Source: Alicyclobacillaceae bacterium (GTDB lineage: Bacteria > Bacillota > Bacilli > Alicyclobacillales > Alicyclobacillaceae). From it: 48,587 nucleotides of DNA. The position numbers and the translations under genes are program-made. Within the stretch, counting starts at the first letter, position 1; each line of letters opens with the position of its first letter. Positions 30,850 through 32,435 of this stretch are shown here, piece by piece. Location: positions 1-48,587 of the forward strand of contig JADGIC010000003.1 in the NCBI GenBank assembly GCA_019683615.1, in the 5' to 3' direction. The notes under the pieces were generated by a model. That model made no database searches. It was given only the letters and a program-made list of their open reading frames with translations, and was not told the DNA's origin.

Positions 30850-31620
30850 GTGCAGGTGGCGGACGAGGGAAAACTTTACGTGCAGATAGCCCGGAGTATC
30901 CGGGCGACAATTGAGGAGGGTCAGTTTCGTCCGGGCGAGAAACTGCCTTCCCTGGCCCGGCTGGCGCGCGTCTACGGGTGCAGCCGCGCCACAGTGCGGG
31001 AAGCGCTGGGGGCGTTGCGCGGCCAGGGTTTGGTGGAGTTCCGCCATGGCGACGGCGTGTACGTGCGGACAGCGTCGGTGGAGATGTGGATGGAGCCGCT
31101 GGAAGCAGCCATCCTGCTCGGGGAAGGGCAGGCCTTGCAGCTGGTGGAGTTGATGACGTCCATCGTCGCTGGAGTTGCCGCGTTTGCTGCGTCGCGGGGT
31201 GTTCAAGGCGACACAGGCGCACTGTCGGACGCCCTCTTTCAAGTGGAGTGCGCAGCGCCGGGGACGGAAGCGGCGGTGGCCAGCGAGTTGTCGTTTTACG
31301 CGGCGCTCGCCGAGTACTCGGGCAATGCCTTGTTGGCCAACGCCTTGCGAGTGCTGCAGGAGGCCCTGCGCAGCAGCTTGCGCGTGCTGTACGAGGACGA
31401 CGGCGGCGAGGACGGCGGCCGCCGCGGGCCCTCTGCGGTCTCGGCCGGCGTCCCGTCCGCGGCTGAGGTGTGCCGTATGCTGTACGCTGCGGTGTGCGAA
31501 GGCGACGCCGAAGCGGCCTGGCGCATCGCCTTCCGACACGGGACGGCGATGGCGCGGCGTGTGGCGCGCCGGCGGGAGCGGTGGATTGCGTCGGCCTCGC
31601 GTCAGGCCGGCCGCGCATGA
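30850..31620 (+). CDS. GntR-family regulator (FadR/FCD type)
   Basis: A 256-residue regulator. The N-terminal winged helix is typical of GntR (LYVQIARSIRATIEEGQFRPGEKLPSLARLARVYGCSRATVREALGALRGQGLVEFRHGDGVYV, residues 9-75). The C-terminal part is all-helical and Ala-rich, consistent with an FCD effector domain, but the metal-binding His residues of FCD proteins are hard to place, so the effector is unknown. GTG 30850 follows GGAGGGTGA. The gene is alone on its transcript; nearby genes give no clear regulon. Confidence 0.9.
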   Translation: MQVADEGKLYVQIARSIRATIEEGQFRPGEKLPSLARLARVYGCSRATVREALGALRGQGLVEFRHGDGVYVRTASVEMWMEPLEAAILLGEGQALQLVELMTSIVAGVAAFAASRGVQGDTGALSDALFQVECAAPGTEAAVASELSFYAALAEYSGNALLANALRVLQEALRSSLRVLYEDDGGEDGGRRGPSAVSAGVPSAAEVCRMLYAAVCEGDAEAAWRIAFRHGTAMARRVARRRERWIASASRQAGRA

Positions 31621-31664: not shown

Positions 31665-31670
31665 TATAAT
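31665..31670 (+). promoter_or_regulatory. -10 element before the c-di-AMP riboswitch
   Basis: A perfect TATAAT at 31665-31670; the -35 region is weak (TTCCGC at 31642-31647, 17-base spacer). Transcription would start about ten bases before the riboswitch. Confidence 0.55.
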
Positions 31671-31684
31671 CACATTGTAAGCGC

Positions 31685-31845
31685 TATCATGGATGCCGAA
31701 TTCTCCGCGCGGAGAAACGGGGGAACCATTCTTCGGCGGCTGCGCCGGGTGTTCGGCCGCCGCCATGGGGTGCAGTTCTGCTTTCGGCAGAAGGGGTATC
31801 TCTTGCAGCCCTGACCCGTCAGCTAACCTCGTAGGCAATGCAAGG
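31685..31845 (+). ncRNA. ydaO/yuaA-type c-di-AMP riboswitch
   Basis: The leader shows the hallmark conserved blocks of the ydaO-yuaA riboswitch in order: a short GC hairpin (TCTCCGCGCGGAGA), GGGGGAACCATT, a hairpin rich in GGCGGC/GCCGCC, ATGGGGTG, and the very conserved 3' block CCGTCAGCTAACCTCGTAGGC (31817-31836). This riboswitch binds two c-di-AMP molecules and usually turns off potassium-transport or cell-wall genes. No terminator hairpin with a T-tract follows; the ribosome-binding site AAGGGAG lies only a few bases later, suggesting control of translation. Confidence 0.88.
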
Positions 31846-31857
31846 GAGCGAATTTTC

Positions 31858-32280
31858 ATGTACAGACTGTTGGTCGTGTCGTTTGGCAGGGAAGGATTGG
31901 CGTACGTCCGTTTGGGTCGGCAACGTGGCATGTCAGTGCGGGTACTGGACTGCGTGGACCGCTACCACCGCCAATTGGTGCAATGGTACGGGGACGACGT
32001 CCTGCAGGTGGCCGGGCGGCGTGCGGATGTGCGAGCGGTCGTCGCCAGGGAGGCGTTCGATGCCGCCATCGTGCATGAGGATTCGGATTTCATCCGGACC
32101 GCTTTGATCACCCAGTCTCTTCGCGAAGCCGGCGTCAGGACCATTGTGGTGGTGACACCCGACATCAGCCGGCGCATGATGTACCGCCGCTGCGGGGCGC
32201 ACCGGATTGTGGTGGCGACAACGCCGGAACAGGCATGGACGATGATAGACCGTTATCTGCCCGCGTTTGCCACCGCGTGA
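31858..32280 (+). CDS. stand-alone RCK_N (TrkA-N)-like protein under c-di-AMP control
   Basis: A 140-residue Rossmann-type protein. The order of elements follows the regulator-of-K-conductance N-domain: beta strand and glycine turn (LLVVSFGREGLAYVRLGRQRG), Asp at the end of strand two (VRVLD), then the AAIVHEDSDFIRTALITQSLREAG stretch and MMYRRCGAHRIVV near the end. The glycine motif is degenerate and no C-terminal RCK_C domain is present, which in KtrA binds c-di-AMP. ATG 31858 follows AAGGGAG by nine bases. The upstream c-di-AMP riboswitch strongly supports a role in potassium transport, but no transporter partner is encoded nearby. Confidence 0.75.
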   Translation: MYRLLVVSFGREGLAYVRLGRQRGMSVRVLDCVDRYHRQLVQWYGDDVLQVAGRRADVRAVVAREAFDAAIVHEDSDFIRTALITQSLREAGVRTIVVVTPDISRRMMYRRCGAHRIVVATTPEQAWTMIDRYLPAFATA

Positions 32281-32339
32281 TGTGCACGGGGTTATTGCGG
32301 TCAGGTTTGGTGAGCAAGGGCGGATGACAGCAGGACAGG

Positions 32340-32380
32340 GACGGCGCGGAGCTTTGACCTCCGTGCCGTCCGCAGTTTTT
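32340..32380 (+). terminator. intrinsic terminator after the RCK_N-like gene
   Basis: A 12-bp stem (32340-32351 with 32359-32370, one mismatch) followed by CGCAGTTTTT. Good rho-independent terminator, 60 bases after the gene. Confidence 0.75.
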
Positions 32381-32435
32381 GGGGCGGTCTTGTGGTATGA
32401 TCCGAGGCAGAGATGTCAAAGAAAGAGATGAGAAC

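Follow-up and report, generated by a model that had tools for sequence, protein, structure and literature searches.

What does a c-di-AMP riboswitch control when the gene behind it encodes a protein that has an RCK_N domain but no RCK_C domain, and that has no K+ transporter beside it? We addressed this question at one locus of an Alicyclobacillaceae genome, within a stretch of 48,587 nucleotides (the window), and at the orthologous loci of its relatives. The initial annotation had interpreted the gene as one in which c-di-AMP sensing had moved from protein to RNA. The aptamer, the RCK_N fold, the lack of RCK_C and the probable translational control in that interpretation all stand; the relocation of sensing is not supported. 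We propose instead that a monocistronic gene under a CcpA operator and a c-di-AMP OFF switch encodes a modulator of K+ or osmotic homeostasis, and we put the probability of this model as a whole at about 0.5. The features on which it draws are collected in Table 1.

Table 1 Features of the RCK_N locus, numbered from the first nucleotide of the window
Feature	Position	Strand	Remarks
GntR/FCD regulator	30850–31620	+	Pfam GntR 4.7e-19, FCD 2.5e-8; upstream, syntenic in 40/40 loci
Putative -10 box TATAAT (GTGTATAAT), RCK_N gene promoter	31665–31670	+	Conserved across orthologous loci
Cre-like operator TTGTAAGCGCTATCAT, putative CcpA site	31675–31690	+	Expected to overlap the transcription start
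c-di-AMP (ydaO/yuaA) riboswitch aptamer	31684–31852	+	RF00379, 75.1 bits, E 9.8e-16
Pseudoknot 5' strand UCUCUUGCA	31799–31807	+	9-bp pairing with 31839–31847, one G-U
Conserved ydaO core CAGCUAACCUCG	31820–31831	+	Same sequence in three RCK_N aptamers
Pseudoknot 3' strand UGCAAGGGA	31839–31847	+	Includes most of the Shine-Dalgarno
Shine-Dalgarno AAGGGAG	31842–31848	+	9 nt 5' of ATG; read from sequence
RCK_N-only protein, 140 aa	31858–32280	+	ATG to TGA; orthologues in 40/41 family genomes; KtrA-like fold
Intrinsic terminator 3' of RCK_N gene	32339–32381	+	13-bp stem, U tail

The RCK_N-only protein and its neighbourhood

Taken alone, the window protein scores 18.8 bits against Pfam TrkA_N, under the cutoff of 23.8. 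Its family is recognized more readily: 34 of the 40 orthologues match TrkA_N (best 5.6e-8), and a family profile searched against the PDB retrieves KtrA at 5.5e-8. An AlphaFold2 model with a pLDDT of 92.3 displays the strand and helix alternation typical of RCK_N, and all 50 of the Foldseek matches listed are KtrA, KtrC or MthK RCK chains, headed by a KtrAB chain. The RCK_N domain, first described as degenerate and RCK_N-like, is real, and the chain stops after it with RCK_C absent, as had also been proposed. Four residues (Cys32, Gln86, Gly113 and Ala114) are invariant in the family. The first glycine of the GxGxxG dinucleotide loop is replaced by Ala, Ser or Thr in 40/40 members, and this degenerate loop makes canonical NAD or ATP binding unlikely. 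Our literature search for RCK_N-only proteins, or for ydaO with TrkA-N, found no paper.

Two further observations concern the ends of the protein. The aligned last position of the C-terminal tail is Ala in 38/40 members (tails include PAFATA, PSFQTA, PKHMPA and VQEPAS), and AlphaFold assigns low confidence to the last three residues; the tail may serve for interaction or as a degradation tag. At one or more loci of the L079–L084 group, that of G029 at least, an in-frame ATG lies upstream (MKRRSREIQRTNERLIH...), so the protein there may be longer.

Orthologues occur in 40 of the 41 Alicyclobacillaceae genomes, including Alicyclobacillus tolerans BL-1, and the one genome lacking the gene is 62% complete. 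None was found in 18 genomes of a sister family in the same order, profile search included. The genes for LeuS, the GntR regulator and the RCK_N protein are adjacent in 40/40 loci, and YtvI comes next in all but G005 and G027, whose contigs end before it. The RCK_N gene belongs to the family's syntenic core, arranged as LeuS-GntR-RCK_N-YtvI. A second copy in G006, on contig C156, has uninformative neighbours.

In the window, the neighbours are LeuS, the GntR/FCD regulator, a 67-aa membrane protein and YtvI, with an RsfA-type regulator on the opposite strand. No K+ transporter adjoins the gene, which agrees with the initial annotation, and we found no genomic link of the protein to any transporter. 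The strong terminator that follows the gene indicates that it is probably monocistronic; since this terminator separates ytvI from the RCK_N gene, the synteny with ytvI may be passive.

The aptamer, its pseudoknot and the mode of control

The leader, initially called ydaO-type from its letters, was submitted to a covariance-model check with cmscan and matches the full RF00379 model (positions 1–134) at 75.1 bits, above the gathering score of 38. The limits first given for leader and gene, 31685 and 32280, are correct to within one base. The aptamer is predicted to bind c-di-AMP. Its affinity, and that of the two other RCK_N aptamers described below, could be reduced: the GUGAAU and UAGGG segments of the three depart from the Rfam consensus, and their scores of 64–91 bits compare with up to 118 for the best aptamers of these genomes.

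A solved ydaO RNA structure includes a pseudoknot (PMC5393176), and the pseudoknot between a hairpin loop and the 3' end, a trait of RF00379, is present here with 9 bp. For the trio of aptamer-bearing RCK_N loci, pseudoknot strands match their own partners better than swapped ones (p<=0.002). The Shine-Dalgarno overlaps the 3' strand of the pseudoknot in all three, with partly different bases in G014 and G023, and the distance from core to start codon is 26–27 nt. In the window, the ATG at 31858 lies 6 nt past the aptamer end, and no terminator was found between aptamer and gene. The earlier suggestion of perhaps translational control, made from the missing terminator, is strengthened by the position of the Shine-Dalgarno within the pseudoknot, and translational control is probable.

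We consider it likely that the riboswitch turns translation OFF through ligand-stabilized sequestration of the Shine-Dalgarno. At high c-di-AMP, when K+ is replete, the bound aptamer would stabilize the pairing of UCUCUUGCA with UGCAAGGGA; because this pseudoknot contains the Shine-Dalgarno, translation would be OFF. A fall in c-di-AMP would release the Shine-Dalgarno, and the RCK_N protein would be made. We infer the OFF direction from this arrangement. An ON switch, in which an alternative fold masks the Shine-Dalgarno without ligand, could be argued from the minimum free energy (MFE) fold, in which CUCUUGC is bound to the GCAAGGGAG stretch in an arrangement that departs from the ligand-bound architecture: the Shine-Dalgarno is joined to the same loop, and the remainder of the aptamer is misfolded. 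However, the strands so joined are those of the aptamer's own pseudoknot, which the ligand should stabilize, and we regard an ON switch as improbable. A point against the proposed model is that the MFE fold of the leader, computed with a model lacking pseudoknots, does not exceed those of shuffled sequences in stability (z -0.16).

We also surveyed the layout of 49 aptamers from these genomes. An automatic rule assigned 15 of the 49 to a short layout, one of them (the ktrB locus of G008) possibly in error, and the Shine-Dalgarno overlaps the pseudoknot in 13 of those 15. Most of these precede exported wall-associated proteins, whereas in front of transporter genes a terminator is usual and the start codon lies far from the aptamer in most cases. 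The expression platform thus seems divided by gene class, with the Shine-Dalgarno mostly placed in the pseudoknot for wall-associated exported proteins and terminators mostly used for transporters. Wall-hydrolase genes in the same genome as the window share the riboswitch layout of the RCK_N gene. Separately, at four loci (L007, L109, L125 and L132) a c-di-AMP riboswitch precedes the gene of an uncharacterised but conserved protein, which has a motif resembling NGEFLLASVVQDSL; three of the four have a terminator-like site.

The promoter, the cre-like box and the history of the riboswitch

Upstream of the gene, the 40 loci have in common a near-perfect cre-like box beside a TATAAT-type box. The TGWAARCGYTNYCA box is present in 40/40 orthologous loci, and TATAAT, TATACT or TATAGT lies within 20 nt of it in 37/40, mostly 5–6 nt upstream. 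A match to WTGNNARCGNWWWCAW occurs at this sole place in the window, against 0.02 expected by chance, and the 16-mer TTGTAAGCGCTATCAT (31675–31690) fits the complete Bacillus cre consensus. The locus has a cre-like box at its putative promoter, a trait of the CcpA regulon. The 5' edge of the aptamer match overlaps this box, an overlap absent from the initial annotation. The CcpA-like protein of the genome scores 375 bits, below the TIGR01481 cutoff of 442; we infer that CcpA is the protein that binds the box. In the proposed mechanism, a TATAAT-type promoter would read the gene, a CcpA-type operator would cover the start region, and CcpA, acting separately from the riboswitch, would repress transcription in the presence of a preferred sugar. 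Three strict cre matches lie elsewhere in the genome, one of which (L096, contig C206) is near a branched-chain aminotransferase-like (ilvE) gene.

The GntR gene directly upstream in 40/40 loci raises the alternative that the GntR/FCD protein, in place of CcpA, uses the conserved box as its operator and controls the RCK_N gene. We think this unlikely. FCD operators have the form TNGTNNNACNA and do not fit the box, whereas the box fits the full CcpA cre consensus, and its variants stay within cre-type degeneracy.

The aptamer is far less widespread than the box it adjoins. Among 30 orthologous loci scanned, 3 reach the Rfam cutoff: that of the window genome (G000), G014 and G023. The leaders of the other ten loci were read, and none has a recognisable aptamer; four are shorter than 50 nt, and those of six g5 genomes (L079–L084) comprise 120–133 nt of unrelated sequence from the cre-like box to the start. 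The absence of an aptamer from 37 of 40 loci argues that the protein can do its work without c-di-AMP control. The RCK_N gene is found family-wide, in 40/41 genomes, and so had an origin separate from that of the riboswitch.

The three aptamers begin at the same place, directly 3' of the cre-like box, form one clade in a tree of the 49 aptamers (support 0.89) and have a GCAAGG pseudoknot strand in common. Possible half-aptamer remnants were detected in two relatives by local alignment alone: G013, the sister of G023, has a stretch like the 5' part (p 0.006), and G008 one like the 3' part (p 0.002), both values uncorrected for 37 tests. In four relatives (L015, L017, L018 and L025), Rfam found no residual aptamer at E<=10. 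Equal-weight parsimony prefers three gains (three changes) over one gain and six losses, on a tree whose backbone is weakly supported. We favour, as the likely course of events, one ancient gain with several later losses, on the grounds of aptamer monophyly, the shared GCAAGG strand and the common starting point next to the cre-like box.

The role of the protein and comparison with known systems

Elsewhere in the genome, a KtrA with both RCK_N and RCK_C adjoins KtrB on contig C202, with one of each detected; the sole TrkH match of the genome lies on C202 too, beside this KtrA. Adjacency to ktrB or trkH, a trait of KtrA/TrkA subunits, is absent at the RCK_N-only locus. In at least one other family genome, G015, ktrB itself stands behind the same riboswitch class, which fits a K+ context.

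These findings bear directly on the view that the protein is a KtrA minus its RCK_C, for which the riboswitch took over sensing on behalf of a distant transporter. An RCK_N protein lacking RCK_C behind a c-di-AMP riboswitch is what such a transfer would leave. However, the KtrA retained next to KtrB has its RCK_C, so the ordinary protein sensor was kept; the RCK_N protein is old and family-wide (40/41 genomes), with the aptamer in only 3 of 30 loci scanned; and the family lacks GxGxxG, so its members cannot be regarded as functional KtrA proteins that merely lost a domain. We consider this transfer very improbable.

A soluble modulator of K+ or osmotic homeostasis is the role that we tentatively assign to the protein. 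It could pair, for example, with the RCK_N domains of KtrA encoded elsewhere, and would not be a c-di-AMP sensor itself; it may, as first suggested, be the partner of a K+ transporter encoded at a distance, or regulate one. The main rival on function is a role outside K+ biology, such as a cell-envelope or stationary-phase/sporulation factor. Four wall-hydrolase genes of the genome share the riboswitch and the translational layout, ytvI and rsfA adjoin, and catabolite repression fits late expression; the PDB matches of the fold, however, come from K+ channels and transporters, and we hold such a role to be somewhat unlikely.

Returning to a K+ or osmotic modulator, we offer with some reserve the broader reading that this family-specific RCK_N protein, with its invariant cysteine and no nucleotide loop, represents a new kind of soluble regulator on which CcpA (carbon) and c-di-AMP control converge, with an aptamer gained once and lost repeatedly. 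If true, the operator stayed constant while the riboswitch behind it was lost several times, and two relatives still carry half-aptamers as fossils. Because the riboswitch is intact at some orthologous loci, possibly half-lost at others and absent from the rest, these loci offer material for studying riboswitch loss, and carbon catabolite control would be joined to c-di-AMP on one gene. The analysis further draws attention to an RCK_N-only family, so far uncharacterised, whose members occur in nearly all Alicyclobacillaceae.

Among known systems, KtrA and KtrC of KtrAB (RCK_N plus RCK_C) share the RCK_N Rossmann fold, and KtrA is the best PDB match by profile (5.5e-8) and structure. In contrast to them, the protein described here has no RCK_C and no GxGxxG, carries an invariant Cys32, is not encoded beside ktrB and does not conserve the residue at the position of KtrA Glu125. 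The ydaO/yuaA riboswitches (RF00379), including the leader of B. subtilis ktrA (yuaA), represent the same aptamer class with a KtrA-like product downstream; here there is no terminator, the Shine-Dalgarno lies inside the pseudoknot, the product lacks RCK_C and the leader starts inside a cre-like box. The C. glutamicum nlpC riboswitch likewise has no terminator; reporter data indicate translational control there, and a CTCC/GGAG pseudoknot involving the Shine-Dalgarno has been proposed (PMC9960051). That riboswitch serves an actinobacterial wall peptidase, whereas the RCK_N locus adds comparative evidence that c-di-AMP can act on translation, with the aptamer's own pseudoknot proposed to sequester the Shine-Dalgarno, a pairing supported here by comparing three orthologous leaders.
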